Origin: Thermoanaerobacteraceae bacterium
GTDB taxonomy: Bacteria > Bacillota > JADQBR01
Direction: 5' to 3'
DNA: 64,000 nucleotides
NCBI GenBank assembly: GCA_017656305.1
Contig: JACDOG010000011.1
Coordinates: forward strand, 1 to 64,000
Below the pieces are notes generated by a model that saw only the letters and a program-made list of their open reading frames with translations, did no database searches and was not told the origin of the DNA. The translations under genes were made by a program, and so were the position numbers. This document shows positions 8,293-30,705 of this stretch, piece after piece (the first letter of the stretch is position 1; each line of letters starts with the position of its first letter).

Positions 8293-8317
8293 ATACTGAT
8301 TAAAGCATATTTCTCTG

Positions 8318-8377
8318 AAACAGGCATATGTTGTTAAGAGAAACTTTACGTTCTCTTGCCATGCTGCCTGTTTTTTT
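8318..8377 (+). terminator. Terminator after radA
   Basis: Long hairpin with outer stem AAACAGGC (8318-8325) / GCCTGTTT (8366-8373), an inner AGAGAA / TTCTCT stem, and a T-run to 8377. It separates radA from disA. Confidence 0.75.
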
Positions 8378-8457
8378 ATTTAGTATGATTTCGGATAGAG
8401 AATAGGCAAGTTAAAAATAATAAAAGTAAGCAGTAATTAACTTTGGAGGGAATTTTA

Positions 8458-9525: not shown

Positions 9526-9531
9526 AAGGCA

Positions 9532-9556
9532 GTACCTGAAAAGGTACCGTATTTTT
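9532..9556 (+). terminator. Terminator between disA and a convergent gene
   Basis: Stem GTACCT / AGGTAC with a GAAA loop (9532-9547) and a T-run from 9552. It may serve both disA and, weakly, the opposing minus-strand gene. Confidence 0.65.
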
Positions 9557-9926
9557 ATTTAAGCGTGGCAATGGTTTTGCTGGCCCACCGGGTAAGATAA
9601 CCGGTTTCCAGAACTTTTTCGCAGTACTGTCGGGAAAGAGCCGGTTGGTTACTATCGGCGGCAATTTGATATAGATTGGCATAGATCCAGGCTTTTTCCT
9701 GTTGACCGGGATTTGCTGTCAGTGCCGCATGCAACAACTTGCGTGCTAGATTATGGTGCCCGTGGGGAATGAGGTTTGCCGCCAGGATGCGTAAATAAGT
9801 GGCATTACCTGCTTCTTCTATGTACGAGCCGTACTGCTGCCAAAGCTGCTTTTCGTGTGCCGGCAGGGACATGTAAAGAGAGGCCAAAAAAGGTGTCAGG
9901 TTTGCAAATGTCACGGATACTGCCAT
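9555..9926 (-). CDS. Small TPR-like protein
   Basis: A 123-aa soluble protein, mostly helical, with residues spaced as in tetratricopeptide repeats (ARKLLHAALTANPGQQEKAWIYANL, split here across two helices) in its second half. I do not recognise a named family. It probably mediates protein contacts; no catalytic motif is visible. The start is ATG 9926 or GTG 9914; the latter has the better spacing to AAGAGG. It converges on disA. Confidence 0.65.
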   Translation of the reverse strand: MAVSVTFANLTPFLASLYMSLPAHEKQLWQQYGSYIEEAGNATYLRILAANLIPHGHHNLARKLLHAALTANPGQQEKAWIYANLYQIAADSNQPALSRQYCEKVLETGYLTRWASKTIATLK

Positions 9927-10040
9927 CCTCTTAATTATTATTTACTTGTCTTAATATTTACCGGCAGGTATCCAAGTATGCAAGGAAAAGAGGTAGGACT
10001 TAGACAGCCGTCCAACCACTTTTTTGTTTCGCAAACAATA

Positions 10041-10069
10041 TTTACAGCAACAAAAAGGTCTAATATAAT
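10041..10069 (+). promoter_or_regulatory. Promoter of the DUF2892-like gene
   Basis: TTTACA at 10041-10046 and TATAAT at 10064-10069 with 17 bp spacing, about 30 bp upstream of the gene's ribosome binding site. Confidence 0.7.
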
Positions 10070-10101
10070 AGAAACAACCAGAATAGGGGGGAGGCCATTA
10101 C

Positions 10102-10314
10102 ATGTATGTTGTCAACGGGAAAAATTCTCTGGTCAGACTGATAGCGGGAATATTTGTGCTGCTCAGCGTACTGCTGGGTTATGTGCACAGTCCATACTGG
10201 CACATTTTTACCGGTTTTGTGGGCTTTATGCTGGTGATTTCTTCGCTGACGGGTTTTTGCCCCATGGAATTAATCTTAAAAGCGGTTGGTGTTAAAGAAC
10301 GGAAGGTTATGTAA
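10102..10314 (+). CDS. DUF2892-type small membrane protein
   Basis: A 70-aa protein with two hydrophobic spans (about 12-30 and 34-52) separated by a short loop, then the CPMELI motif common to DUF2892/YgaP-type membrane proteins. These often accompany rhodanese domains, but none is present here. Function unknown. It starts at ATG 10102 after GGGGGAGG, has its own promoter, and ends at a strong terminator. Confidence 0.75.
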   Translation: MYVVNGKNSLVRLIAGIFVLLSVLLGYVHSPYWHIFTGFVGFMLVISSLTGFCPMELILKAVGVKERKVM

Positions 10315-10317
10315 TGA

Positions 10318-10365
10318 ACAAAACGGGCATCTGCAGTAAGTGACAGATGCCCGTTTTGTGTTTTT
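10318..10365. terminator. Bidirectional terminator
   Basis: A 16-bp perfect inverted repeat, ACAAAACGGGCATCTG (10318-10333) with its complement at 10344-10359, with T-runs on the plus side and A-rich sequence on the other. It lies between two convergent genes and can stop both. Confidence 0.9.
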
Positions 10366-10366
10366 A

Positions 10367-10777
10367 TTAAGTAAAGTTAAAATATCGAAGTGTGGCAACT
10401 TTTTCATGCTCTTTTTTCATTACTGTTTCCAAATTCAGGCCCAGTGTATGACAGAGAGCGGTAGTATAAAAGAGGGCTTTTCCCAATTCTGCCTGGATTA
10501 CGTCACGGCATTCCTCGCACAACTCACCGCGCAGGTGTGTATCTAAATAATCCTTAAGGTCACTTAAACAAGCTGATTCAGGAATGGGTTTCTTTTCCGC
10601 AACAACTTTCAAGCAGCCGCAGTTGGTAACGGCCTTAATCACAGCCCGATTTACCCGGGCATTTGTTTCCTGGAATTTGGATAATACATCCAGGATACTT
10701 TGATGGCGGACTAAAAATTGAGAAACTATATCTTGAAAGTCCTGAACAGCTACTTTACTTTCTTCGCCAGATCCCAC
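10367..10777 (-). CDS. Conserved Firmicutes protein, MazG-like C-terminus
   Basis: A 136-aa soluble protein. The middle holds conserved cysteines (NCGC near residue 52, CEEC near 92) and the C-terminal helix (ELGKALFYTTALCHTLGLNL) resembles the MazG/NTP-pyrophosphohydrolase helical bundle. I recall close relatives in clostridia near carD or disA, without a proven function. The MazG metal ligands (ExxE-type) are not complete, so I would not claim enzyme activity. Start GTG 10777 is about 12 bases from the AGGAGA motif. Confidence 0.7.
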   Translation of the reverse strand: MGSGEESKVAVQDFQDIVSQFLVRHQSILDVLSKFQETNARVNRAVIKAVTNCGCLKVVAEKKPIPESACLSDLKDYLDTHLRGELCEECRDVIQAELGKALFYTTALCHTLGLNLETVMKKEHEKVATLRYFNFT

Positions 10778-10866
10778 GGTAAAGGTTCATCTCCTTTCCT
10801 ACACTATAAATAATTATAATCTTTTGAACCTTTGATTGTCAACGAGGTATAAACTGCAAAATGCCG

Positions 10867-10896
10867 TTGACATCGACAAAATTCATGTGTTATAAT
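10867..10896 (+). promoter_or_regulatory. Promoter P1 upstream of carD
   Basis: Consensus TTGACA (10867-10872) and TATAAT (10891-10896), spacing 18 bp. It is the first of two tandem consensus promoters. Confidence 0.75.
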
Positions 10897-10909
10897 TAAT
10901 AATTTCTTT

Positions 10910-10939
10910 TTGACATAAATGCGTCCCATTTGGTATAAT
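10910..10939 (+). promoter_or_regulatory. Promoter P2 upstream of carD
   Basis: Again consensus TTGACA (10910-10915) and TATAAT (10934-10939) with 18 bp spacing, 43 bp downstream of P1. Transcripts from here would carry a leader of about 400 nt before carD, or form a separate small RNA. Confidence 0.8.
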
Positions 10940-10944
10940 ATCTC

Positions 10945-11340
10945 TATCAAGTGCAGTTTAAGACCTATGGTAATATGTCAAGTGCCTAATTACCTCATCT
11001 ATTCACCTTCCTTCTGAGCTTGTAAATTTGGTCGTTACGTAGCCAGTGCATCGACCAAACGCACAAGTTTTCTTGCGGTTAAGACGAGGGTTCTTTTATG
11101 TTAGTGCTTGGGCACCTCGTGATACTTTTTATTGTAGTAATCACGAAACTCTGGCTTATAACGTTTTACCGAGTTGGCAGCCTCAACAAGTTACAAACGG
11201 AGATGGTGATTACCAGAATGTCTCGTCTTAGTATCTTCAGTTTTAAAGTTTCTTGATTAAAAGTTCAAAGGAGTACTGGGGAAGCAGACTTAAGAAAAAT
11301 TTTCTGGTTGGGTTGGTGAAAACATATTATACGAGGGGGT
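10945..11340 (+). ncRNA. Long structured leader or independent small RNA upstream of carD
   Basis: No convincing reading frame exists in this ~400-nt stretch, but complementary segments do. A hairpin pairs CTTG + TTTGGTCG (11019-11034) with CGACCAAA + CAAG (11052-11067). A long-range rod pairs AAGACGAG (11081-11088) with CTCGTCTT (11232-11239) and GTAATCAC (11137-11144) with GTGATTAC (11216-11223). Alternative pairings exist: CAAG 11064 with CTTG 11072, and ACGAG 11083-11087 with CTCGT 11116-11120. Rod shape plus strong promoters would fit a 6S-like RNA, but I cannot match it to a known family by eye. Confidence 0.5.
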
Positions 11341-11346
11341 AGATGG

Positions 11347-11823
11347 ATGTTTAAGGTGGGAGATAAAGTGGTGTACCCGATGCACGGAGCAGGAGTAATA
11401 GAAGCAATTGAAGAAAAGGAAGTACTAGGTGAAACTCGTAAGTATTATGTAATGCGTATGCCTATAGGGGATATGAAAGTAATGGTGCCCATGGACAGTG
11501 TCGCTGAGATTGGTTTGCGGCGGGTAGTGGATGAAGAAGGTGTAGAGAAAGTATTGAATATCCTGAGGGATAAGAAAAGCACTATGAGTGCCAACTGGAA
11601 TCACCGCTATCGGGCAAACATGGAGAAGATTAAAAGCGGGAATATCTTTGAAGTGGCGGAAGTAGTAAGGAATTTGATTCTGCGTGACAAGGAAAAGGGC
11701 TTGTCTACCGGTGAACGCAAAATGCTGGAAAACGCCAAGCGAATTCTTATTAGTGAACTGGTGCTGGCTAAGGATGAAGAGGAAGGACAAGTGGAAAGCC
11801 TTTTGGAAGGTGTTTTTGCTTAA
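11347..11823 (+). CDS. carD: CarD/CdnL-family RNA polymerase-binding regulator
   Basis: Binds the RNA polymerase beta subunit and stabilises open complexes. The N-terminal Tudor-like RNAP-interaction domain is clear (FKVGDKVVYPMHGAGVIEAI), and the helical C-terminal half holds the family region VRNLILRDKEKGLSTGERKM. Normal length of 158 aa. ATG 11347 follows GAGGGGG. It heads the run toward ispD/ispF, although the PIN-TRAM gene after it has its own promoter. Confidence 0.92.
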   Translation: MFKVGDKVVYPMHGAGVIEAIEEKEVLGETRKYYVMRMPIGDMKVMVPMDSVAEIGLRRVVDEEGVEKVLNILRDKKSTMSANWNHRYRANMEKIKSGNIFEVAEVVRNLILRDKEKGLSTGERKMLENAKRILISELVLAKDEEEGQVESLLEGVFA

Positions 11824-11904
11824 TCGGGAACTCTTGTTCTTGGTCTTTTTTGTTTCTAGGGTTTTTCACCGCAAGCAGGGAATATGCCTGAAAACAACAT
11901 TCTC

Positions 11905-11933
11905 TTGAATTTATTTCCAGCAAGTCGTATAAT
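11905..11933 (+). promoter_or_regulatory. Promoter of the PIN-TRAM gene and isoprenoid genes
   Basis: TTGAAT (11905-11910), 17 bp, TATAAT (11928-11933). It lies 40 bp before the start of the PIN-TRAM gene and probably drives ispD and ispF too. Confidence 0.75.
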
Positions 11934-11974
11934 GTGACTTGTGTTATGCAAGAATATAACAAGGAGGTGAGAGT

Positions 11975-13099
11975 ATGATATCTAAATTCATCAGATTGTT
12001 GATTACAGCAGTTATCGCAGGTGGCGGTTTTTCCGCAAGTAATAGTCTAGTTCTTTGGTGGTATGAGGGACCGATGCAAGTAAAATGGGCCATTATCGGG
12101 CTCAGCACCATAGTATCCGCACTTATAGGATTTTACCTGGCTCCCCATATTACCCGTTTTGTCTTGCAGGTGATGGGATGGATTGAAACAAAACTGTCCA
12201 AAACACCTATCCAGGATATAATAGGTGGTGCAATCGGTCTTATATTTGGTCTTATTATTGCTATGTTATTACGCTCTTCTTTAGCTTTAATACCGATTAT
12301 AGGTGATTACCTGCCGTTGCTGGTAAGTTTGCTCCTTGGTTACCTGGGGCTAAGTGTTGGCGTAAAGAAAAAGGACGATTTACTGACCATATTTGCCATC
12401 TTTCCGCGTTTGGGCAAGGACAAACAACTCGGCAAGCCGGTTCCGTCCACAGGTAGCAAGCCGAAGATTCTGGATACCAGTGTGATTATTGACGGGCGCA
12501 TTGCCGATATCTGTAAAACCGGTTTTATAGAAGGGGTACTGGTTGTCCCCGGATTTGTACTGGAAGAATTACGCCATATAGCTGATTCCTCTGACCTTTT
12601 AAAACGAAACCGCGGGCGGCGCGGCCTGGACATTCTCAATAAGATGCGGAAAGAGTTTGACGTAATAGTGAAAATTCATGAAGAGGATTTTGACGATATT
12701 GCAGAGGTGGACAGCAAACTAGTGAAACTGGCGCAGAAGCTGGATGGAGATATTTTAACAAATGACTTTAACCTCAATAAAATTGCAGAACTGCAGGGGG
12801 TAAAGGTTTTAAATATCAACGAACTTGCCAATGCTGTGAAACCGGTTGTCCTGCCGGGAGAAGAAATGACGGTGCAGGTGATTAAAGATGGAAAGGAAGC
12901 CGGCCAGGGTGTAGGTTATCTGGATGATGGTACCATGATTGTGGTGGAAGGCGGCAAGGGCTATATCGGCAAAACCATCAAGGTGCTGGTAACCAGTGTC
13001 CTGCAGACAGCGGCCGGTAGAATGATATTTGCCAAGCCCAAAGAGACGGGAAAAAGCAGTAATATTGACCGTTTAAGTGAGGGGAATGTCGGTGGCTAA
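11975..13099 (+). CDS. Membrane-anchored PIN-TRAM protein (YacL-like)
   Basis: Four hydrophobic segments occupy about residues 5-130 and would place the protein in the membrane. A PIN nuclease domain follows (ILDTSVIIDGRIADI, then DGDILTNDFNLNKIA with acidic residues), and a C-terminal TRAM RNA-binding domain (GQGVGYLDDGTMIVVEGG). 374 aa, as in YacL. The family is presumed to act on RNA, but its substrate is not established. The ribosome binding site AAGGAGG is excellent. The last codons overlap ispD by 8 bp. Confidence 0.9.
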   Translation: MISKFIRLLITAVIAGGGFSASNSLVLWWYEGPMQVKWAIIGLSTIVSALIGFYLAPHITRFVLQVMGWIETKLSKTPIQDIIGGAIGLIFGLIIAMLLRSSLALIPIIGDYLPLLVSLLLGYLGLSVGVKKKDDLLTIFAIFPRLGKDKQLGKPVPSTGSKPKILDTSVIIDGRIADICKTGFIEGVLVVPGFVLEELRHIADSSDLLKRNRGRRGLDILNKMRKEFDVIVKIHEEDFDDIAEVDSKLVKLAQKLDGDILTNDFNLNKIAELQGVKVLNINELANAVKPVVLPGEEMTVQVIKDGKEAGQGVGYLDDGTMIVVEGGKGYIGKTIKVLVTSVLQTAAGRMIFAKPKETGKSSNIDRLSEGNVGG

Positions 13100-13775
13100 C
13101 ATAACAGCCATAATTCCGGCTGCCGGCCAAGGCAGGCGGATGCAGAGTGACATCAACAAGCAGTATCTTTTGTTAAAAGGAAAGCCGGTGCTGGCTCACA
13201 CACTGGCGGTATTTGAAAAAAGTACACTTATCAGTGAAATACTTGTGGTGGTTCGGGAAGAGGAAATGGAGTTTTGCAAAACCCAGATAGTGGATAAATA
13301 TGCCATCAGTAAGGTTAGAGCCATTCTGCCAGGTGGGAAAGAGCGGGTGGATTCGGTAAAGGTGGGGCTGGACAACTGCAGTCCTGATACCGATATAGTG
13401 GTCGTGCACGACGGGGCGCGGCCACTTTTAACATATAAATTGCTCAACCAGGTTTTGGAAAAAGCATTGGAGACAGGGGCGGCTATTGCCGCGGTACCGG
13501 TAAAAGATTGCATCAAAAGGGTTGCTGATGATGTGGTCGCAGAAACCCTGGACAGGCAACAGTTGCGGGCGGTACAGACACCCCAGGCTTTTAAGTTTGA
13601 ACTAATTCGGAATGCATTTAACCAGCCCCTTCCTGAAGTGGTATATGACGATGCCATGATGCTGGAATTGTGCGGTTACAGGGTTTCGGTGGTGCCTGGT
13701 AGTTATAAAAATTTAAAGATAACCACGCCGGAGGATTTGCAGATAGCTGCCGCGCTGCTTGAAAATGAGCAATGA
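13092..13775 (+). CDS. ispD: IspD, 2-C-methyl-D-erythritol 4-phosphate cytidylyltransferase
   Basis: Third step of the MEP isoprenoid pathway: CTP + MEP to CDP-ME. The Rossmann-type CTP-binding loop AIIPAAGQGRRM at the start, VHDGARPLL and the late VYDDAMMLE region are all visible. I prefer GTG 13092, seven bases after GAGGGG; ATG 13086 is the alternative but too close to that site. The gene overlaps the preceding one and ispF follows by 13 bp, so the two MEP enzymes are made together. Confidence 0.94.
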   Translation: MANITAIIPAAGQGRRMQSDINKQYLLLKGKPVLAHTLAVFEKSTLISEILVVVREEEMEFCKTQIVDKYAISKVRAILPGGKERVDSVKVGLDNCSPDTDIVVVHDGARPLLTYKLLNQVLEKALETGAAIAAVPVKDCIKRVADDVVAETLDRQQLRAVQTPQAFKFELIRNAFNQPLPEVVYDDAMMLELCGYRVSVVPGSYKNLKITTPEDLQIAAALLENEQ

Positions 13776-13788
13776 CGGGGGGAGACTG

Positions 13789-14268
13789 ATGCGGGTAGGT
13801 ATCGGTTATGACGTGCACCGGTTGGTGGCGGGTCGAGATTTGATAATTGGTGGAGTAAAGATTGAGTACGAGCTGGGTTTGGACGGGCATTCGGATGCTG
13901 ATGTCCTGACCCATGCCATAATGGATGCTATGCTGGGTGCTGCGGGCCTGGGAGATATTGGCAGGCATTTCCCGGATACGGACCCGGAGTTTAAAGGCGC
14001 TTCCAGTTTGATACTGTTAAAAGATGTAGTTGCCAAAATCAGGCAGCGGGGCTATGCCGTTAATAATGTAGACGGCATCATTGTGGCGCAGAAACCCAGG
14101 ATGAGCCCCTACGTTTCCAGGATGGTTGAAAAGCTTGCGCAAACTATAGGCATTGATCCGGACCGGGTGAATGTCAAGGCTACCACTACCGAGGGGTTGG
14201 GATTTGCCGGCGCAGGGCACGGGATAGCTGCCCATGCGGTGGTGATGGTTAGAGAGAGTGACGAGTAA
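13789..14268 (+). CDS. ispF: IspF, 2-C-methyl-D-erythritol 2,4-cyclodiphosphate synthase
   Basis: Converts CDP-ME 2-phosphate to the cyclic diphosphate and CMP; the family is a zinc-dependent trimer. Metal ligands are seen in GIGYDVHRL (Asp/His) and GHSDADVLTHAIMDA; the tail TTTEGLGFAGAGHGIAAHA matches the family. 159 aa from ATG 13789 after GGGGGGAG. An in-frame TTG at 13759 inside ispD is less likely. Confidence 0.95.
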   Translation: MRVGIGYDVHRLVAGRDLIIGGVKIEYELGLDGHSDADVLTHAIMDAMLGAAGLGDIGRHFPDTDPEFKGASSLILLKDVVAKIRQRGYAVNNVDGIIVAQKPRMSPYVSRMVEKLAQTIGIDPDRVNVKATTTEGLGFAGAGHGIAAHAVVMVRESDE

Positions 14269-18740: not shown

Positions 18741-19418
18741 ATGAAAGTATCGCTACTAAGTTATACGGAAGACCCGGAAAAAAAGGTGGCGGCGGCGGCG
18801 CGGCTGTGCTATTCGACTGTGGGGGCGCAGGAATTGCTGGAAGATCTGGATGATAAGAAGACGGCAGAGTTTTTGCGAAAGTTAATTTCCATGGGGCACT
18901 TATCTCCTCTGGAGCATGCGGTTTTTACCTTTGCTGTCGAAGGTGTGAGCCGGGTGCTCAGTCACCAGATGGTGCGCCACCGTATTGCTTCCTACTCGCA
19001 GAAATCACAGCGTTACGTCAGTGAGCATAATTTTTCGTATATAATTCCGCCTTCCATTCAGAAAAATCCTGAGGCACTGGCCAAGTACAGGGAGAAAATG
19101 TCTTTAATAGCGCAAAGCTATGCTGAACTAGCGGAAATAGTGCCCAAAGAAGATGCCAGGTATATACTGCCGTCGGCATGTGAAACAAAATTTATCTGCA
19201 CTTTTAATGCCAGGAGCTTATTAAACTTTTTCCAGCATCGTTGTTGCCGGCGGGCGCAGTGGGAAATCAGGGAACTGGCGGAAGAAATGTTGAGGCTGGT
19301 ACGGCAGGTTGCGCCGGTGATGTTTGAAAAGGCGGGAGCTACCTGTGATGTGTACGGAGTATGTTATGAAGGAAAAATGTCCTGTGGAAGGGCGAAAAAA
19401 ATTATGACGCGAGGTTAG
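18741..19418 (+). CDS. thyX: ThyX, FAD-dependent thymidylate synthase
   Basis: Makes dTMP from dUMP with methylenetetrahydrofolate and reduced FAD. The ThyX signature RHRIASYSQKSQRY (RHRxxSxxxxSxR) is intact, as are the FAD/dUMP-binding stretches LEHAVFTF and RSLLNFFQHRCCRRAQWEIR. 225 aa. No thyA is in view, so this may be the cell's main synthase. Confidence 0.95.
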   Translation: MKVSLLSYTEDPEKKVAAAARLCYSTVGAQELLEDLDDKKTAEFLRKLISMGHLSPLEHAVFTFAVEGVSRVLSHQMVRHRIASYSQKSQRYVSEHNFSYIIPPSIQKNPEALAKYREKMSLIAQSYAELAEIVPKEDARYILPSACETKFICTFNARSLLNFFQHRCCRRAQWEIRELAEEMLRLVRQVAPVMFEKAGATCDVYGVCYEGKMSCGRAKKIMTRG

Positions 19419-21941: not shown

Positions 21942-22017
21942 GCCCATATAGCTCAGGAGGTGGAGCGTCGCCTTGGTAAGGCGGAGGTCGCCGGTTCAAG
22001 TCCGGCTATGGGCTCCA
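21942..22017 (+). tRNA. tRNA-Thr (GGT)
   Basis: 76 nt with encoded CCA. Acceptor GCCCATA / TATGGGC, anticodon loop TTGGTAA gives GGT. It is the last host gene seen; the phage integrase begins about 85 bp further on, so its 3' end is a candidate integration target. Confidence 0.97.
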
Positions 22018-22102: not shown

Positions 22103-23284
22103 TTAAGAGCTGTTTTTACTGAGCAGGCTGTCCATTTTATGGGCAGCTTTTTTCTTTATTTTGAGTGTGACATGGGAGTAAATATTGGCTGTAGTTTTAA
22201 TATCGGAGTGTCTTAGAAGCTCTTGAACAACTTTGAGGCTTTCACCCTGTTCTAATAATCTGGTCGCAAAAGTATGACGAAGGCCGTGTAAATTGACTTC
22301 CTTACTCACTCCAGCTTTCTCCCTTAACTTGTAATACTTTCTTTGAAAGTTTCTCGGGTACATGTAGGTTCCGACGTCAGTTCCAAATACCAAGTTTTCG
22401 TTTTTGTACTCATCTCGCCGTAACATGATAATTTCTTTTTGAGTTTTACGATGTTGCTTTAAAGCTTTTAATGCAATTTCAGGAACTGGTACCGGTGCTT
22501 TGGACTTTTCGGTTTTTGGCTCATTTATGACCAATCCTTGGGATTGGGTTCGTGATAAGGTTTTAGTTACTTTAATGTACCCTGTCTTGAAATCAATATC
22601 ATCCCATTCAAGAGCCAGAAGCTCCCCGATCCGCAGGCCGGTCCCAAGTAATGTGAGAAAGGCTGCCTTCCATTTATCGCTTTCCTCATTGATTACCTTT
22701 AAAAACCTATCCATTTCCTCTTCATTCATCGTAGGAGCTTCCTGGTGCTTCACAGAGGGCCGCTCAGTCGCCTTTGAAGGGTTCCATACCAGGAGCCTTT
22801 TTTCAACCGCTTTCTCGAGGCAACTGTGAATTATCTGGTGTATTTTATGGATGGTTGCAGGTGCTTTCCCGGCATCTCTTAGTTTGTTGTAGAGTGCCTG
22901 AATATGGTCGCTATTTAGTTCAGTGAGGGGTATTTCCCCAAGCGCAGGGTAAATATGCAGTCTGGCGTACATATAGTAATTCTCCAGCGTTGATAACCGT
23001 AACTTAGGCTTTTTATAAAGCTCCAGCCAGTCCGCTAGCCATTCACCAAACGTCACGCTTTTGGCAGTTTCCTGGTCTATTCCCAGGTTCATTTGCTCCA
23101 TATACTCCTGCATTTTTTCTTTTACCTCGGCCCGCGTTTTGCCATAAAAACTTTTTCTTTTGGGCTTCCCTGTTTCCGGGTCCTTTCCAATAGTTATTTG
23201 CCCAACCCATTTACCCTTGTGTTTTCCGCTTTTGACCTGATAGATAGTACCTTCACCATTAGCGTTTTTGCGTTTTTTAGGCAT
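22103..23284 (-). CDS. int: Tyrosine-type phage integrase
   Basis: Site-specific recombinase that inserts and, with an excisionase, removes the prophage. N-terminal arm-binding domain (about 10-55), SAM-like core-binding domain (about 60-165), then the catalytic domain with Arg in GLRIGELLALEW, HGLRHTFATRL (His-x-x-Arg), the second His in LRHSDIKTT, and the nucleophile Tyr in NIYSHV. About 393 aa. Start ATG 23284 (MPKKRKNANGEG) has AAAGGGGG upstream; an in-frame ATG at 23317 does not. It points toward the tRNA, the usual orientation beside attL. Confidence 0.95.
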   Translation of the reverse strand: MPKKRKNANGEGTIYQVKSGKHKGKWVGQITIGKDPETGKPKRKSFYGKTRAEVKEKMQEYMEQMNLGIDQETAKSVTFGEWLADWLELYKKPKLRLSTLENYYMYARLHIYPALGEIPLTELNSDHIQALYNKLRDAGKAPATIHKIHQIIHSCLEKAVEKRLLVWNPSKATERPSVKHQEAPTMNEEEMDRFLKVINEESDKWKAAFLTLLGTGLRIGELLALEWDDIDFKTGYIKVTKTLSRTQSQGLVINEPKTEKSKAPVPVPEIALKALKQHRKTQKEIIMLRRDEYKNENLVFGTDVGTYMYPRNFQRKYYKLREKAGVSKEVNLHGLRHTFATRLLEQGESLKVVQELLRHSDIKTTANIYSHVTLKIKKKAAHKMDSLLSKNSS

Positions 23285-23387
23285 AAACTGTTCCCCCTTT
23301 TGTTGAAATCCTTGCACAAATTAAAAGGACAGGCAAGGTTGAGTCGGAGCGTAGCGGAGCCATATAGCCGCTGTTGTCCGAAGTTGT

Positions 23388-24161
23388 CTAAAGGATATCA
23401 AGTATTTCCTCTGGGCTGGTCAATACAGAAATTCCGGTTTCTTCACCGATAATGTCTTTTACTCTTGCGAAGTCCGAGTCAAAACTTGCAATATATTGAC
23501 ATCCTAAGTGTTGAGCTAAAAGTATATGCATAATGTCAGCAATACCGAGTTGCAAATATGCATAGACAGAAGGCTCTTCCCATACTTTACTGACTGGTAA
23601 ATGAAAATTAACTATATTAACTTGCAACAAGCCCTGTAATCCATGGACCTCTACAAACGATCTGTTTAACCATGTTTCGGACATCAATATCTCTAATCCA
23701 GTTGATACACCTGGCTTCTTTCCTTCTTGTTCTTTGATTTCTGCTTCCCTCAATTCTAAAGCTTTTTTGAGATAATCGCCGATTTGTTTCTTGCTCTTTT
23801 TCTGGATAAGCATCGTTCCTGATGCTTCAGATGCAATTTGTTTAAATGCCGCTTCTGCCTGCCATTCCATCAATTCTAATAAAGAGAATGGACTCACTAC
23901 CGGTGTAACTTTAACTTTTTCAAAGAGCAGTTTCTTTCTAATCTCAACTACTTTGCTAATTCTTTTTTCCGACCTTAAAATATCTTTGACAACTTGTAAA
24001 TGTGGCAATTCGTTTTTCTTCATCAATTTATCCACTTCTGTCTCTGGCATTTCCATACCCTCAGTCATCCAGTAATCTACAAGAACGGACGTATCAAAGT
24101 AGATCGCTGGCAAAAATCTTTTCTGCAGTTTGCCAGTGCTTGTAAGTATTGTATCTTTCAT
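23388..24161 (-). CDS. PIN-domain protein
   Basis: A 257-aa protein with the PIN fold split across its length: YFDTSVLVDYW near residue 21 (first Asp) and GIADIMHILLAQ plus ASFDSDF near the C-terminus (further acidic residues). A long helical, Lys/Glu-rich insertion lies between them, which makes it larger than VapC-type toxins (about 130 aa). No antitoxin-like partner adjoins it. Likely a ribonuclease; its target and a role in phage exclusion are inference. Good ribosome binding site (GGAGG) before ATG 24161. Confidence 0.75.
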   Translation of the reverse strand: MKDTILTSTGKLQKRFLPAIYFDTSVLVDYWMTEGMEMPETEVDKLMKKNELPHLQVVKDILRSEKRISKVVEIRKKLLFEKVKVTPVVSPFSLLELMEWQAEAAFKQIASEASGTMLIQKKSKKQIGDYLKKALELREAEIKEQEGKKPGVSTGLEILMSETWLNRSFVEVHGLQGLLQVNIVNFHLPVSKVWEEPSVYAYLQLGIADIMHILLAQHLGCQYIASFDSDFARVKDIIGEETGISVLTSPEEILDIL

Positions 24162-24401
24162 AAATTAGCCTCCGAGACAATTTCGCCTAACTTAGGGATT
24201 TCCTCTTTTTCTTACGCCGCCTTTCATAATATCCCTCCCAAGTGACCTGTCATAAACACTCACCTCTCAAAAACATATGTTCGGTTAAAAATTAAAAGAA
24301 AAAGCTATTAATTGAAATCTGTAGCAACTAAATGGCTTAATTTGCGCGTTGATAAAAAAGGGTAACTATTTTACAATGATAATAAGTTACGAGGAGGGTT
24401 T

Positions 24402-25127
24402 ATGATGAAAAGAATTGTTATGCTTTTTTTATGGATAGTGTCCTTCGTATTAATCCTATTTTACGTTGTATATAAACCCGAAGAGTTCCTAATACAAGGT
24501 CCGCTAATCCTCGGCTGGGTATTATTTACCTTACAGTTTACTTACAATAATTCCGAAAAATTTTATCTGCTTATTCAAAGAATAGTTTTTAATATTAAAA
24601 ACCCCGACTGTATTTGGAACATGGAAGTTCAAATGACAGGTGATTTTGATAGAGAGATATTTAAAAAAATTGATGAATTGTTTTATTCTAAGGACCAGAA
24701 TTTAAAAATTTACGATATTAGTAATACGAGAAAGATTTATAAGTTATCTACAATAAGCTTTGAAATATCGGTTAAGGAAGATGAGGGTACTATAAATATC
24801 TCCGTTCAAGATTTAGAAGTTAGCTATCGGCGAGCCAAAAACATAATTGATAAAGAACTGGCTAAAATATTTGAAAATCTACAACTGAGTTTAAAACCTG
24901 ACAATAACAGTTTTGGTTTGCATGTTGAATTTAAAGGGTTTAATCCATACTTTGGTTTCTTTATCCGTAGATTAAATGCTAGTACCATAAGTAGTTTTAA
25001 TATTACGATTAAAATCGAAGAAGATTGCGTTGCTGTATATAAAAACAGTATAGATATTAGTACAAAAAGCTTCCAAAGTTTAAATAACTTATCAAAAGAT
25101 TATTTGGCATTTTCCCCATTAGATTGA
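24402..25127 (+). CDS. Membrane protein of unknown function, convergent with the next gene
   Basis: 241 aa. Two hydrophobic spans at about 4-24 and 32-48 are followed by a soluble domain of mixed sheet/helix with many Asn, Lys and Ile. I do not recognise the family. It is AT-rich compared with phage structural genes. ATG 24402 (or 24405) follows GAGGAGGG. Its last 28 bp overlap the 3' end of the minus-strand gene ending at 25100, so the two form a convergent pair in the cargo area. The 240 bp before it (24162-24401) show no gene. Confidence 0.7.
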   Translation: MMKRIVMLFLWIVSFVLILFYVVYKPEEFLIQGPLILGWVLFTLQFTYNNSEKFYLLIQRIVFNIKNPDCIWNMEVQMTGDFDREIFKKIDELFYSKDQNLKIYDISNTRKIYKLSTISFEISVKEDEGTINISVQDLEVSYRRAKNIIDKELAKIFENLQLSLKPDNNSFGLHVEFKGFNPYFGFFIRRLNASTISSFNITIKIEEDCVAVYKNSIDISTKSFQSLNNLSKDYLAFSPLD

Positions 25128-25795
25128 CCGATATTTATTAAAGTCTCGTAAACATCAAGTACAAGGTCAAGTTCATCCTCGATCATATCAAAGGTGTCAT
25201 AAAGAACAATGGAACTTTTCTTGCTTATCGCTATCGTATGTTCTTCCTTAGTTAATTTCGAGACATATTGTAATTGTAGCGAAGAAACTTCTCCTTCTTC
25301 TGCCGCTATCTTAAATTCTTCACTTTTGTTAACATTTGGCCCGAACAACCCAGCAGTTTTTAAATAAGTTCGCTTCAAATCAGCTATCCAGGCACCCGAG
25401 ACCTCTGTTATTAAAGGGTACATTTTAGCAAAGTCTATTGGAACAGGTTGACAGTCAAAAGCCTTGCTGCTATTAAGTATACGAATATAATCACGTGCAA
25501 TATCTGTTTTAGTTTGAATTAGAAGGATAGATTTGTTTCTGTTGTAGTACATATAAAAATCAACTGGTTCAAAATAGTATGTAAAGAATTGATTGAAAAC
25601 TTTACCATACTTCTTGTGTTTATAATCATGGTGACAGGTATATTGGTCGTATCCTTGATAAAAATCTTTGCGGGTTAATTTATAGTTAATTACAGCTTCC
25701 CCTTCATGTTCAAATAAAGCTTCTTGGATAGGCATCTGATAAAACTCATCATCATAAAACTTTTCTACGGCACATATCAAATATGATTTTGGCAT
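25100..25795 (-). CDS. Soluble protein of unknown function, convergent partner
   Basis: 231 aa, no signal peptide or membrane span, rich in Tyr, Phe and Asp/Glu (FYDDEFYQMP near the start; IEDELDLVLDVYETL near the end). No family recognised. It overlaps the membrane-protein gene by 28 bp at the 3' ends and its start lies inside an ImmA remnant. Position suggests cargo such as phage exclusion; nothing in the sequence proves that. Confidence 0.65.
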   Translation of the reverse strand: MPKSYLICAVEKFYDDEFYQMPIQEALFEHEGEAVINYKLTRKDFYQGYDQYTCHHDYKHKKYGKVFNQFFTYYFEPVDFYMYYNRNKSILLIQTKTDIARDYIRILNSSKAFDCQPVPIDFAKMYPLITEVSGAWIADLKRTYLKTAGLFGPNVNKSEEFKIAAEEGEVSSLQLQYVSKLTKEEHTIAISKKSSIVLYDTFDMIEDELDLVLDVYETLINIGQSNGENAK

Positions 25796-26010
25796 ATCTA
25801 CCTATTCCCCCTTCTGAAAAAGCATCGGTCCAAATCCTCACCAACTCCACCGACAGTTCCATCCTCGCTGCAAACTTCTCAATATCCTCCCCGTAAGTAA
25901 ACGCTTCCTTCCCGATCAGTAACTCGGCTGCAAAATAGTTGGCTCGGTGCTCCTCCTTGCCTTGGTCAAAGAATGTGTTCTCTGTATTTTTTTCGGAGCA
26001 ATAATAGGGA
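25752..26010 (-). pseudogene. ImmA/IrrE-type peptidase remnant (C-terminal part)
   Basis: The minus strand encodes TFFDQGKEEHRANYFAAELL and, later, EDIEKFAARMELSVELVRIW, closely parallel to the intact ImmA ending at 27847 (TFFVNGKYERQAHQFAAELL and ESIEDYAKRKNVPVELVRVW). The N-terminal half with the HExxH zinc site is missing, so this copy is dead. The frame stops at 25752-25754, inside the 5' end of the neighbouring gene. The 5' boundary is approximate. Confidence 0.75.
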
Positions 26011-26046
26011 TTTTAAGAGGAGCAGAACCTGTATTACCCAACTTAA

Positions 26047-26736
26047 TCAAGTACAATCTGCTCCATAAATAAACTCATAAAAGTCTATTTCCTCATCATC
26101 AGAAATAAGCCCCCGTTCCTTACATTCTTTGTACCAATTAACGATTGCTTTTTTCATCCGTTCTAATGAAGTTTTCCATACAGGTCTTAAATGCTTAATC
26201 CATAGTTCTATTTCTTCAGGACTAATAAATCTACTTTTTTGACACAATATTTTTGCAGTTTGAATAATTATTTTTGCAAGGCTTTCATCAATAACATTGT
26301 TTGGAATTGACCAGTGAGCATTTCCTAAGCAATCTGTATAAAAAGCAATTTGTTTAACTTGATCAAGAATAAACGGATGTTCGGAGCTGTTGTCAAAGAG
26401 AGGCCGTAGATCATCCAACGTTCGAGCTCCTTGCAAAACAAGACTTGGCAGGAGCCAAGCGACATTCTTTTTGGTGTGTGTCCGGTATTCCCGCCAATAC
26501 TGATTGATTTCTTCCAAAGTTTTGGCCACAGCTAACCCTCTCAAAATCGAAGCTTTTCCTGCTTCCTCAATAGCTAATATTGCAAGGGCTGTAGCAGATG
26601 GGAGTCTTCCGGACTCTAACAAGATAATTGCATCTTCTAGCAGACGAATTGAATTTTCATTAGCCGCATTTATACCTGCTGCAATTTGCTCTGAGTTTAG
26701 TGGTCCTTTGTATTGTTTAAGCTTTCTCTTACTCAT
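26047..26736 (-). CDS. AbiV-family abortive-infection-like protein
   Basis: 229 aa, all-helical. The segment ATALAILAIEEAGKASILRG near residue 48 is the hallmark of the AbiV family, known in lactococci to stop phage maturation. Lengths agree (about 200-230 aa). ATG 26736 has GGAGG six bases upstream. It sits between two ImmA remnants in the cargo block of the prophage. Role in superinfection exclusion is inferred from the family. Confidence 0.8.
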   Translation of the reverse strand: MSKRKLKQYKGPLNSEQIAAGINAANENSIRLLEDAIILLESGRLPSATALAILAIEEAGKASILRGLAVAKTLEEINQYWREYRTHTKKNVAWLLPSLVLQGARTLDDLRPLFDNSSEHPFILDQVKQIAFYTDCLGNAHWSIPNNVIDESLAKIIIQTAKILCQKSRFISPEEIELWIKHLRPVWKTSLERMKKAIVNWYKECKERGLISDDEEIDFYEFIYGADCT

Positions 26737-26852
26737 AATTACCTCCGGATTTCACACAAAATAGTATTTTAACAAGACCCAAATTCCTACTAAATAATAA
26801 CCTCTATGCCCATGCAAATCCTGCCCCGGCACTAGTAACCATAACCATAAGG

Positions 26853-27244
26853 CTATAAAGAATAAGCAACTGAGACCTCCCTTACAAACAAATCTGCTTG
26901 TCTCTCTACTGTTGTTCTCTTCATGTTTAACACTACCACATACCCCACACTGGGCATGTGTTCAATTACATGGCACAATTCATGCAAAAAGACTTTCTCG
27001 CGGGCTTCCAGACTTAAAGATTGGTTAATGACGATATGAAACCTTCTTTGCGTGACCGGTAGGCAAAAGCGGCAACATCGCCGTTTAAATCTGCATAATG
27101 GCAGATGATGCCATACGCCCGCATTACTTCTATCGGGCTCAGGGTGCGGTCCTTAAGTTTTCTGATGATCAGATATTTTTCTGATAATCTGCTCTTTAAC
27201 AGTGGACTACGCTGTCTCAGGCGGAACCATTGATGGAAACTCAT
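26853..27244 (-). pseudogene. Frameshifted ImmA/IrrE-type peptidase
   Basis: An ImmA-like gene broken in the middle. The first frame gives YGIICHYADLNGDVAAFAY and runs out as KEGFISSLTNL; one base away the frame continues HIVINQSLSLEAREKVFLHE with the zinc site HELCH and then ERQADLFVREVSVAYSL to a TAG at 26853. A single-base deletion near 27021 explains the break. The C-terminal domain is also short, so even without the frameshift the protein would be truncated. The 5' end overlaps the DUF4145 gene. Confidence 0.75.
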
Positions 27245-27818
27245 ATATAAACCGGAGTAACATCTCCAAGAATGTAATAAGTGCGATTGCGTCTTCCTTT
27301 TCCATCAAGGCAATTTCATGGGTAGCTTCGTTACCGCGTTTACGTATATAGTCGACCCATACTTTGCCGTTTGGAGGGACGTAGCCTTTGTCCGCCAAAT
27401 ACTCGACGTATTCAACGAAACGCTTGCCCTCTTCTGCTCCCTCCGTAACTGCAATGTTCATGAGCATCTTGCGGCAAAGAAGCACTGCGCCTGTATAGGC
27501 ACCTGAAGCAGCACTCACACGTGCTTCGTTATAAAGATCGGAAAGTTCGTCAGGAAGATTCGACACAGGGTTTCCTGGAGCAGTTCCCGGGTAGATCTCG
27601 CCTTTGGGAGTAAAAAAGGTTGGCCCCTTACAACTTGGACAAATTCGAATATAGGCTATGGGGCTTCCAGATCCGTCGGGCTTTGAGCTTGCCCAGTAGC
27701 CCCTGTTTGACGAGACTTTGTCACCACAGTAACCGCATACATATGTTTTCGCTGGAATTTGTTTGGTGTTATACCATGCACCATCGCCAAGTGAGACACT
27801 ACTTCTTGATAGAGCCAC
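27207..27818 (-). CDS. DUF4145-domain protein with zinc ribbon
   Basis: About 203 aa. The N-terminal half has a zinc-ribbon pair (CGYCGD and CPSCKG); the C-terminal half matches DUF4145 (ASGAYTGAVLLCRKML, then GNEATHEIALM). DUF4145 domains frequently occur with restriction and other defence proteins, but a stand-alone function is not known to me. GTG 27818 has GGAGGTG at proper spacing; an upstream GTG at 27827 lies inside that site. Part of the cargo block. Confidence 0.8.
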   Translation of the reverse strand: MALSRSSVSLGDGAWYNTKQIPAKTYVCGYCGDKVSSNRGYWASSKPDGSGSPIAYIRICPSCKGPTFFTPKGEIYPGTAPGNPVSNLPDELSDLYNEARVSAASGAYTGAVLLCRKMLMNIAVTEGAEEGKRFVEYVEYLADKGYVPPNGKVWVDYIRKRGNEATHEIALMEKEDAIALITFLEMLLRFIYEFPSMVPPETA

Positions 27819-27846
27819 ACAGCACACCTCCGAGTTTGACCTGTAA

Positions 27847-28272
27847 TCAAGTATCTTTCCACACCCTCACCAGCTCCACCGGCACATTTTTCCGCTTCGC
27901 ATAATCTTCAATGCTTTCCCCGTAGGCAGGCTTGTCCGCCGCCAGAAGCAGTTCCGCCGCAAACTGATGGGCCTGGCGCTCATATTTGCCGTTGACAAAA
28001 AACGTTTCCTTGATCATGAAAAAGTATCCCATCCCCTGGGGGTGTAGCTGGTTGTGGCCAATTTCATGGGCTACTATGACCCGCTGGAACTGCTCCGGAA
28101 GCCGGCTGTTGAGGCCTATTATCTTGTGGCCGAAGAGGCTTATCGCCAGGCCTTTTATCTTTTTAAACGGAAAGCGAATGATGGTAATGCCAAGGTGATC
28201 TGCAAGTTCAAAAGGGTCACGGGTGCCGTATTGCTCTACCAGGTTATTGACGGCAGTTTTGATGAAACTCAT
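27847..28272 (-). CDS. immA: ImmA/IrrE-family metallopeptidase
   Basis: Zinc peptidase that cleaves the phage repressor upon induction in ICEBs1-type switches. Zinc motif HEIGHNQLH near residue 72, and the C-terminal region with FAAELLLAAD and VELVRVWKDT. About 141 aa from ATG 28272; an in-frame ATG 69 bp upstream lacks a ribosome binding site. It is separated from the repressor by the fic gene, unlike the usual direct pairing. It is the only intact one of three ImmA copies here. Confidence 0.85.
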   Translation of the reverse strand: MSFIKTAVNNLVEQYGTRDPFELADHLGITIIRFPFKKIKGLAISLFGHKIIGLNSRLPEQFQRVIVAHEIGHNQLHPQGMGYFFMIKETFFVNGKYERQAHQFAAELLLAADKPAYGESIEDYAKRKNVPVELVRVWKDT

Positions 28273-28332
28273 ACTGCTTACACCACCACTGCTCCTTTGT
28301 CTAAGGTTGTCTATTTTTGTCGAAACTCCATA

Positions 28333-28370
28333 ATAAAGCAAAAACTACTACCGGTTGTTGGTAGTAGTTT
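28333..28370 (-). terminator. Terminator after fic
   Basis: Perfect 11-bp inverted repeat AAACTACTACC / GGTAGTAGTTT (28342-28370) with a 7-nt loop; on the minus strand it is followed by a T-rich stretch. It separates fic from immA. Confidence 0.75.
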
Positions 28371-28480
28371 AGTTTGTTGTTGCTTGGCTTATATGCGGTT
28401 GCAGCTTCTTGAGTAAAAGGTCTGCTTGCTATTCAAATTTCCATGCTTGTGGTTATTCATTCCTCATGTTATGAAAGCGG

Positions 28481-29638
28481 CTATGTAGTTAGCTCCGTAC
28501 CAGCCTGAAGCAGGTCAATATATGCGGAATATCTAAACTTTCTGTTTCTCTGAACTTTAGGGTTGTAATGTAGAATTCCGAGATCACAAAATTGTGACAC
28601 AAGAGCATTCGCAGTTGGATAAGTTACTTCTAACATATCAGCAACCTTATTTATTGTAACAACGGGGTGCTCAAAGAGATTTTCTAGTAATTTAAGCCCA
28701 TTTGACGGATTTTTGATACGGGAATTGATTAATTTAGAATGTTCTTCTTTCATTTTAAGAATCTTTTTAGCGGTTTCTGTAGCCTCAATAGAGACTTGTG
28801 CAATACCTTTCAGGAAAAACTTGATCCAATTTTCCCAATCACCTTTCAACCTAATATCCATCAATCTGTCGTAATACTCTGTCCGGTTCATTTTGAAGAA
28901 ATGACTTAAATATAACAAAGGTTTTCTTAATATTTTTTGTTGGCATAACCAAAAAGTAATAAGAAGCCGCCCTATTCTTCCATTGCCATCAAGAAATGGA
29001 TGTATAGTTTCAAACTGGGCATGAATGAATCCTATTTTAATTAATGGGGGAATATCTTCGTATTCATGAAAAAACAATTCTAAGTCAGCCATAGCTTTCA
29101 TGGCTTCGTGGTGTGGTGGAGGAACAAATGTTGCTGAAGATAAAGTACATCCTGCGGGCCCTATCCAATTTTGGCTTTTTCGAAATTCGCCTGGTGACCT
29201 TTCTCCACCGCGAACATCCTGTAAAAGGATCTTATGTATTTCCTTAATAAGTCTTAAAGAGAGTGGTAATTCTTCTAACCTGGTCAAACCATAATTCATT
29301 GCTTTAATGTAGTTTACAATTTCTTCGATACTCTTCTCTTTTTCAACATCAACTGAATCATCAGCATCTAGCACATCGATCAAAGACGCTTGAGTACCTT
29401 CAATTTGAGAGCTAAGAACAGCTTCTTTCTTAACATACATTGCAACGAACAAGTCGGGGTTAGGTAGAATCTGAGTAATTCCGTCCAATCGTCCCAAACA
29501 TCTGTCCGCTGTAGAAAGCAGTAAGAGCATGTCATTATCCATCTTTAGCGGAGGATCTGGAGGAAGCGGCTTAGGAATAAAAGCTCTATAACCTCCTGGT
29601 TGATTCATGAATACCCCAGCTCTATTCGATAATGCCAT
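28481..29638 (-). CDS. Fic-family protein (AMP-transferase fold) with C-terminal winged helix
   Basis: Fic enzymes transfer AMP or related groups to target proteins. The full active-site motif HPFLDGNGRIGRLL lies near residue 213. The N-terminal domain shows SSQIEGTQASLIDVL, an inhibitory-helix-like [S/T]xxxE[G/N]-type segment (SQIEGT). The C-terminus (about 320-385) is a winged helix (VADMLEVTYPTANALVSQF), so it could bind DNA. 385 aa. ATG 29638 follows GGGGAG. A 14-bp palindrome lies 40 bp upstream. Target unknown; role in phage exclusion is a guess. Confidence 0.88.
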   Translation of the reverse strand: MALSNRAGVFMNQPGGYRAFIPKPLPPDPPLKMDNDMLLLLSTADRCLGRLDGITQILPNPDLFVAMYVKKEAVLSSQIEGTQASLIDVLDADDSVDVEKEKSIEEIVNYIKAMNYGLTRLEELPLSLRLIKEIHKILLQDVRGGERSPGEFRKSQNWIGPAGCTLSSATFVPPPHHEAMKAMADLELFFHEYEDIPPLIKIGFIHAQFETIHPFLDGNGRIGRLLITFWLCQQKILRKPLLYLSHFFKMNRTEYYDRLMDIRLKGDWENWIKFFLKGIAQVSIEATETAKKILKMKEEHSKLINSRIKNPSNGLKLLENLFEHPVVTINKVADMLEVTYPTANALVSQFCDLGILHYNPKVQRNRKFRYSAYIDLLQAGTELTT

Positions 29639-29855: not shown

Positions 29856-30206
29856 TCATTTCCTTTTTTTCTTCCGTATCGTTTTCCAAGCCACTTTTAG
29901 GAACTCTATGATGTCCTGCTTGTCTTCTTCGTCTAAGGGCTCGCCGTTGAATTTGATGTTGGAGTGTTTGAGGAGTTCTTCTAGTTCGATGTCGGAGGGA
30001 GGATCGTCGGGGAGGTCATCTAAAAAGTAGCCAGGAGATACTTTTAACGCCTCAGCTATACTTCTTAATGTATCAAGCGAAGGATTACTGCGGCCTTTTT
30101 CAATATCATTCAAATAAGAAACCGATATCTGAGCTTTTTTAGCTAACTCAGTCATGGTCATGTTTTGTTGTTCTCGCAGTTTAGTAATCTTTTTCCCTAA
30201 AGACAT
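29856..30206 (-). CDS. Phage CI-like repressor (XRE family)
   Basis: 116 aa. N-terminal helix-turn-helix (KITKLREQQNMTMTELAKKA, then YLNDIEKGRSNPSLDTL), as in SinR/ImmR-type repressors; the acidic C-terminal tail ends KTIRKKKRK. No autoprotease domain, which agrees with control through an ImmA peptidase. ATG 30206 is preceded by GGACGAGG. It is divergent from the Cro-like gene across the operator cluster and probably maintains lysogeny. Confidence 0.88.
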   Translation of the reverse strand: MSLGKKITKLREQQNMTMTELAKKAQISVSYLNDIEKGRSNPSLDTLRSIAEALKVSPGYFLDDLPDDPPSDIELEELLKHSNIKFNGEPLDEEDKQDIIEFLKVAWKTIRKKKRK

Positions 30207-30278
30207 GATAACCTCGTCCTTTCGGTATAACCGTAATTTTATTATATCCCATGTTTCCCACAATCAAAAGGGTACTGG

Positions 30279-30444: not shown

Positions 30445-30705
30445 ATGCTAGGTAAACGCATTCGAGAAGCAAGGGAAAGAAAAGGCTTGAAACAAGTGGA
30501 CTTAGCAAAACTAACTGGTCTAGCAAACTCAACCATCTGTGACATTGAAAAGGATAGGATAAAACCTTCTATCGATAGTTTAGCTAAGATCGCAGAAGCC
30601 ATGGAACTTCCCATCAGTTATTTTATACCTTCTCGTTACGAAAATAACGTAAGAAGGTTCCCTAATGACCATACCGCGAGGTTAGACGCCACTGGGACTG
30701 AGTAA
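30445..30705 (+). CDS. Cro-like XRE-family regulator
   Basis: 86 aa, almost only a helix-turn-helix domain (KRIREARERKGLKQVDLAKL, then STICDIEKDRIKPSIDSL) with a short charged tail. Divergent from the repressor and behind the operator-covered promoter, so a Cro role is likely. ATG 30445 follows GGAGGTG. The 3' part of the gene contains a fourth operator copy. Confidence 0.82.
   Translation: MLGKRIREARERKGLKQVDLAKLTGLANSTICDIEKDRIKPSIDSLAKIAEAMELPISYFIPSRYENNVRRFPNDHTARLDATGTE
30635..30653. promoter_or_regulatory. Fourth operator copy inside the Cro-like gene
   Basis: GTTACGAA-AAT-AACGTAAG matches the switch operators in 15 or more of 19 positions. About 240 bp from the main array, it could allow repressor looping. 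Confidence 0.65.

Follow-up and report, generated by a model that had tools for sequence, protein, structure and literature searches.

What do the genes between the integrase and the repressor of a prophage do, and how did they come to be there? This question is raised by positions 23388 to 29638 of a 64,000-nucleotide stretch (the window) of contig JACDOG010000011.1 from a Thermoanaerobacteraceae bacterium. A preliminary description of this interval had proposed an island of genes for a PIN protein, a convergently transcribed membrane and soluble protein pair, an AbiV-like protein, a DUF4145 protein and a Fic protein, mostly on the minus strand. Open reading frames and family matches confirmed these genes, and six of the seven intact island genes are on the minus strand. 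The explanation that we consider best, and to which we give an even chance, is a mosaic site for defence or exclusion cargo that contains a Rex-like sensor-plus-membrane pair, with separate one-gene cargo beside it.

The window's own genome (G000) contains a second element, designated L017. It was found that the integrase is 72.8% identical in nucleotide sequence to the L017 integrase region (93.8% in the N-terminal part), that the attachment and integrase side aligns with L017 at 73 to 94%, and that the 3′ half of the repressor gene aligns at 90%. An immA block of 497 bp (27874 to 28370 in the window) is common to both at 99.4% identity, and the ImmA proteins are 97 to 98% identical. The cargo of L017 is wholly different. 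It comprises genes for a nuclease of the BglII type (Pfam 6.3e-48) and a TIR protein (PADLOC PDC-S35 1.3e-100; Pfam CAP12-PCTIR 3.3e-32), with four more to which no family is assigned, and Fic is absent from its immA-repressor junction. The high identity is lost close to the 3′ end of immA. Between two of the L017 cargo genes there is a 27-bp copy of this end as it occurs in the window. Because the skeleton is shared and the cargo differs, gene swapping at this site is well supported, and the recent gene exchange suggested in the preliminary description is strongly supported by this comparison, with the 99.4% identity confined to immA and breakpoints at its 3′ end.

No structural phage genes were seen between the Cro-like and TetR-like genes of L017 (1940 to 12148), and the element seems reduced to its lysogeny module; defence cargo may therefore be all that was kept. 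A repeat of about 50 bp lies beside int in the window (23326 to 23377) and, in L017, between cargo genes and elsewhere (7532 to 7581, 19363 to 19398), and a 60-bp repeat is found between phage genes in the window (40634, 41602, 42128) and in L017 outside the element (15253).

The interval was compared in relatives by searching 398 genomes of the phylum, 69 of which had a match. Stretches taken around 60 of the listed places, together with the window, L017 and a further locus of the same genome, L018, gave 63 loci with 60 ImmA frames. A recombinase was counted if it was on the same strand and within 7 kb of ImmA, leaving out L050 (10.9 kb) and L018 (other strand). A downstream recombinase was present at 25 of the 60 immA loci, abutting immA in 7 (78 bp or less) and separated from it by 0.4 to 6.3 kb of variable cargo in 18; at the other loci there was no recombinase within the sequence stretches examined. 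The genes of this interval are therefore not fixed among relatives. At 12 of the 60 loci, 0.4 to 2.0 kb between the repressor and ImmA constitutes a second cargo site. The number of PADLOC models matched was 229 for 61 cargo proteins and 65 for 61 control proteins, which is a crude enrichment with overlapping models. Families among the cargo proteins included C5 methylase, GajA/OLD-like ATPases, DUF3644, EC042_2821 nuclease and DUF3800, and some immA-int intervals hold genes without a link to defence (TPR proteins, DUF4236). Between ImmA and int, L025 from Carboxydocella carries a gene resembling serine proteases of the ClpP/SDH type (5566 to 6771; Pfam 2.3e-11), and L018 (G000:C8:46000-64000) has a third repressor-ImmA locus at 7029 to 13819, behind which a type III-like restriction-modification pair is encoded on the other strand.

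Antiviral hotspots in prophages are described by Rousset et al. 2022 (PMC9122126) as short variable loci between conserved phage genes, for instance between cI and integrase in Vibrio or among regulator, peptidase and integrase in Bacillus prophages; these loci hold restriction and other defence genes. The same high gene turnover between conserved phage genes is seen here, both in L017 relative to the window and in the 7 empty and 18 filled intervals. The present site differs in that immA marks the junctions, broken immA copies lie between cargo units, the hosts are Moorella-related Bacillota and the site is known from sequence alone. Judging by its gene turnover, the island is a new member of this known kind, the prophage defence hotspot.

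The preliminary description had also noted leftover ImmA pieces between cargo genes. Two decayed copies are real, one at 25824 to 25982 (53 codons, 51% identical to ImmA; genome search E 5.3e-11) and the other frame-shifted, whereas the remaining immA is intact. The frame-shifted copy matched the window's ImmA at E 0.062 and the ImmA of L025 at E 3.3e-5, whereas a search of these 63 loci with reversed ImmA as the control yielded a single weak match, which was not in the window. Fragments were also found in L017 (7344 to 7377), at two places in L092, in L023 and in L024; in the window, L017, L023 and L092 a remnant is followed within about 130 bp by a same-strand gene, the L024 remnant being the exception. 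In G004, a genome from another family of the phylum, locus L022 has an 89%-identical ImmA, and the gene adjoining immA there is the one that is distal in L017 (94.9% nucleotide identity), with homology stopping at the immA end. From this one cargo gene, an order in which the repressor-proximal cargo is the newest is suggested.

These observations are consistent with a model in which the int-repressor interval would be a cargo site on a repressor-immA-int backbone, with anti-phage or exclusion genes being inserted downstream of immA and again between the repressor and immA. Exchange is seen in the comparison with L017, and the route may be recombination that adds cargo, often with breakpoints at the immA 3′ end, after which displaced immA copies would decay in place. 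The idea that the immA copies are a mobile element with conserved ends was rejected: a hairpin at the start of the immA block is present in only 6 of 299 genomes and no recombinase was seen travelling along, and so recombination between phages plus decay is preferred. The following was also noted: the immA copies of G004 (L023 14666 to 14954; L092 3884 to 4113) have a common internal deletion; the 27-bp immA 3′ end and the hairpin 5′ end are each also found alone (L017 7344 to 7377; L092 1259 to 1287); several copies of the immA block terminate at one and the same base, which could hint at a recombination site; and in L093 (7875 to 8845) a NERD-domain gene follows a solo immA leader hairpin, as though another gene had acquired the leader.

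The convergent pair was evaluated by single-sequence searches of the 398 genomes, in which homologues of the soluble protein were found, besides G000, in G260 (33% identity, 9.5e-40) and G303 (29%, 1.2e-21), and a homologue of the membrane protein was found adjoining the soluble gene in G260, again convergent. The gene order in G260, which belongs to the same genus as Moorella mulderi, is repressor, M78 protein, soluble and convergent membrane gene; in G303 it is repressor, coiled protein, soluble, convergent membrane gene, ImmA and a serine integrase at tmRNA; and in the 46-kb viral contig L115 it is repressor, M78, soluble, convergent membrane gene and tyrosine integrase. In the 4.3-kb viral contig L116, the membrane and soluble genes are on one strand, a few bases apart, preceded by genes that we take to be holin-like and lysin-like. 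Thus, the membrane gene adjoins the soluble gene at all five loci and is convergent and in a lysogeny module at four, where the 3′ ends overlap by 28, 26 and 4 bp or, at the fourth, are separated by an 11-bp gap. Leave-one-out profiles built from the other four members recovered each member at E 1.3e-20 or lower among about 5,500 background frames, the next frame being at 0.02 or higher. Because the neighbour is conserved in five of five loci, the convergent pair is, by this measure of conservation, a real and unannotated two-gene family.

A profile search of 397 genomes gave no further pair members, a membrane-profile scan of viral contigs found none, and a repeated soluble-profile scan of viral contigs found only L115 and L116 again. 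The window, L115 and L116 versions of the soluble protein had no match among phage records, the window's version matched no family above its cut-off, and neither pair family reached a Pfam cut-off. A plasmid match of the soluble protein was judged to be a chance match inside PglX, and plasmid searches with the L116 soluble version and with the membrane protein gave no match. The soluble family had no solved sequence relative at E 1, and two weak matches of the membrane family to solved structures (E 0.0081 and 0.72) were not used.

AlphaFold2 models were made from five-row alignments, giving a predicted local distance difference test (pLDDT) score of 83.8 and a predicted template modelling (pTM) score of 0.81 for the soluble protein, and 81.0 and 0.74, respectively, for the membrane protein. 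The top fold match of the soluble model was Escherichia coli RdgC (Foldseek 2.7e-5; VIA Z 10.3 over 217 residues at 5.3 Å), followed by Iml3/CENP-L (Z about 6 to 7) and CENP-N (about 5), and its viral fold matches include proteins named recombination-associated RdgC and exonuclease. DUF4747 was not found in Pfam scans of the window's soluble protein at E 1 or of its four homologues at E 0.1. The membrane protein is predicted by hydropathy and the model to have one to two N-terminal helices (2 to 23 and 26 to 50 in the model) and a cytosolic domain, which gave TBP/AdoMetDC-like matches at Z 8.7, near the level possible by a common arrangement.

Fold relatives reported for RexA are RdgC, IML3 and CHL4, and its homologues adjoin repressors in other temperate phages; Rex-type pairs are described as sitting beside the repressor and excluding phages, and in Sbash gp30 has been proposed to activate the membrane protein gp31, collapsing the membrane potential (PMC11077077, PMC6426596). 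The window's pair resembles these systems in having a soluble protein of predicted RdgC-like fold by the repressor and a membrane partner, and in its location in the immunity or lysogeny region at four of five loci, with L116 as the exception. It differs in that no sequence relation was detected, in that the membrane partner, with its two helices and large cytosolic domain, is not RexB-type, and in that the genes are convergent, not co-transcribed, at four of five loci. A literature search combining RdgC, prophage, membrane protein and superinfection exclusion found no paper. By analogy with RexA/RexB and Sbash gp30/gp31, the soluble protein, oriented with the repressor, may sense invading phage DNA or replication, and the opposite-strand inner-membrane partner would then depolarise or otherwise disable the membrane, aborting the infection. 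The pair most likely works like Rex, to judge from this analogy, although it fails sequence membership in RexA/RexB, and superinfection exclusion, the role given to the island in the preliminary description, is plausible in view of the family names and the RdgC-like fold modelled for the pair. More tentatively, and possible rather than probable, the pair would be a new Rex-type family of Bacillota prophages, in which an RdgC-fold sensor binds a TBP-like membrane partner (compare Iml3 with Chl4/CENP-N of kinetochores), the tail-to-tail antisense arrangement ties dose to the lysis-lysogeny switch, and recombination at the immA 3′ end has spread the unit between phages, with immA fragments recording the successive insertions.

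Several observations weigh against a Rex-like pair within a defence site. The models rest on five sequences; comparison of the soluble model with RexA (8twq_B) gave a VIA Z of only 3.6 (162 aligned residues, root mean square deviation 13.4 Å), which may be because of a large domain rearrangement, from the crystallised to an open form, inferred in the RexA structure paper; and hhalign detected no relation of the soluble protein to RexA (probability 0.1) or of the membrane protein to RexB (probability 0.6). The isoelectric point of the window's soluble protein is 5.1 (6.1 to 8.5 in homologues), and this acidity is unhelpful for non-specific DNA binding. The antisense layout could keep the membrane gene low in lysogeny, and the L116 pair lies on one strand beside lysis genes. 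As for the site, of the loci searched only loci of G000 and G004 contained immA remnants, the more distant immA loci having none; the PIN gene had no match among PADLOC defence models; and a relative of the DUF4145 protein also lies outside a lysogeny module. A scan of viral contigs with the DUF4145 protein gave one relative, L016, which had no ImmA or recombinase match.

The layout of the pair also recalls Staphylococcus aureus 80alpha, in which the cI promoter is reported to drive all lysogeny-module genes but ith-1, an antisense gene with a constitutive promoter of its own; Tha is a HEPN protein, Ith its inhibitor, and the antisense ith-1 turns the defence off on induction (PMC11087260). 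By such a rule the soluble protein would be the defence protein and the convergent membrane gene a lytic-phase inhibitor that spares the induced prophage its own defence. We regard this as unlikely, although only the membrane gene opposes the repressor-side strand at four of four lysogeny-module loci, as ith-1 does, with the short 3′ overlaps or gap given above and a promoter-like site at 24349. The co-directional L116 genes suit co-action better than mutual exclusion and speak against the rule as a general one, the number of promoter-like matches in the region does not exceed chance (22, with 19.9 expected and a standard deviation of 5.2), and the likeness is one of gene layout between a HEPN protein with its inhibitor and a predicted RdgC-fold protein with a membrane protein.

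It is rather improbable that, in the manner of RexA in lambda or SzaL/SpaL in pneumococcal prophages, the two proteins (or only the soluble one) tune the switch to or from lysogeny and do not act on other phages directly. The pair is beside ImmA and the repressor at four of five loci, RexA is reported to bias the lambda bistable switch independently of RexB, and a pneumococcal immA-adjacent gene is implicated in activation; however, 7 of the 25 related modules have no cargo at this site, which argues that such cargo is dispensable for lysogeny, and a large conserved cytosolic domain on the membrane protein is not obviously needed for such tuning. The RdgC-named proteins and exonuclease among the best viral fold matches would also fit an RdgC-type phage recombination protein with an incidental membrane neighbour, but this is quite unlikely given a neighbour conserved at all five loci despite low identity and given loci in lysogeny modules, not beside recombination genes. 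Least of all do we favour neutral passenger DNA that was caught up in phage recombination, a frequent event, and is now in decay: of the three immA copies two are broken, and there are AT-rich patches, but the cargo frames are open, the Fic motif is intact and the pair is conserved across distant genera.

The features of this part of the prophage, from the tRNA gene at which the prophage starts to the Cro-like gene, are given in Table 1.

Table 1. Features of the prophage attachment side and lysogeny module (window positions)
Feature	Positions	Strand	Evidence
tRNA-Thr(GGT), attachment side of prophage	21942..22017	+	ARAGORN
Tyrosine integrase (int)	22103..23317	-	Pfam Phage_integrase 5.1e-32
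PIN-domain protein, cargo	23388..24161	-	Pfam PIN 9.8e-9
Possible own promoter of membrane gene, TTGATA-17-TACAAT, 10/12	24349..24377	+	motif match
Membrane protein of convergent pair; two N-terminal helices and cytosolic TBP/AdoMetDC-like domain (predicted)	24402..25127	+	
Soluble protein of pair, predicted RdgC fold; 28-bp 3′ overlap with membrane gene	25100..25795	-	
immA remnant, 3′ end only, directly upstream of soluble gene	25824..25985	-	tblastn E 1e-12
AbiV-family HEPN protein	26047..26736	-	Pfam HEPN_AbiV 3e-41; NCBIfam AbiV_defense 7.1e-37
Second, frame-shifted immA-like gene	26844..27244	-	frame translations
Zinc-ribbon and DUF4145 (HEPN-like) protein	27207..27827	-	Pfam 2.8e-10
Intact ImmA (M78) protease	27847..28341	-	Pfam M78 2.2e-13
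Hairpin between immA and gene upstream; start of conserved immA block	28342..28370		
SoFic-type Fic protein, between immA and repressor	28481..29638	-	Pfam Fic 7.4e-22; PADLOC SoFic 7.2e-124
HTH repressor	29856..30263	-	Pfam HTH_3 1.2e-19
Cro-like HTH gene, divergent	30445..30705	+	open frame

Read from the right, the minus-strand order is repressor, Fic, immA, DUF4145, frame-shifted immA, AbiV, immA remnant and soluble gene, followed by the membrane gene (plus strand), PIN and int. Over the 133 bp surrounding the 3′ end of the tRNA gene, identity to L017 at its tRNA-Thr(CGT) end is 94%; attR was looked for within the window and not found. The AbiV, DUF4145, SoFic and PIN genes would be the separate one-gene cargo, likely RNase or AMPylation defences. 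The AbiV protein exceeds both cut-offs (Pfam, 141.6 bits vs. 27.1; NCBIfam, 126.9 vs. 27) and is of the same HEPN_AbiV family as lactococcal AbiV, for which SaV is reported as the phage target (PMC3231927, PMC3710099), the difference being that it is prophage-borne here. It had no match among phage records, and viral-contig scans with the PIN, soluble and AbiV proteins of the window or with the L017 ImmA found no relative. The DUF4145 protein matched PADLOC PD-T7-4 (38 bits, 2.7e-10), with a better fit to the phage family PHROG 1305 (1.2e-25). The Fic protein carries HPFLDGNGR and SSQIEG motifs, the latter presumably of the inhibitory type, and missed the NCBIfam SoFic equivalog cut-off (174 bits vs. 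550).

For the backbone, a precedent is found in SieF7/2AB of lactococcal prophages and orf2/3 of TP901-1, for which phage exclusion tests are reported (PMC7693887). These have the same order of repressor, M78 protein, cargo and int, with a cargo protein unrelated by domain to those of the window. By domain scan, the orf2/3 exclusion pair of TP901-1 (L120, 1608 to 3188) consists of an M78 protein and a PH/SHOCT protein; it is an earlier example of phage exclusion by an M78 protein and its cargo neighbour encoded between repressor and int. By analogy, this pair suggests that ImmA-like proteins may act with neighbouring cargo.

Relative to the known hotspots, the newer part is the convergent pair, a previously unnamed two-gene unit that also occurs beside the switch in distant prophages. 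If the proposed function is correct, Rex-like exclusion, described in the papers cited above from lambda-like phages and actinobacteriophages, would also exist in Bacillota with a different membrane partner, and with the five unannotated pairs the old question of how a DNA-binding sensor is connected to a membrane effector could be put to the test in hosts other than E. coli. The way in which cargo is exchanged and piled up at defence sites of prophages can moreover be read from the immA remnants.

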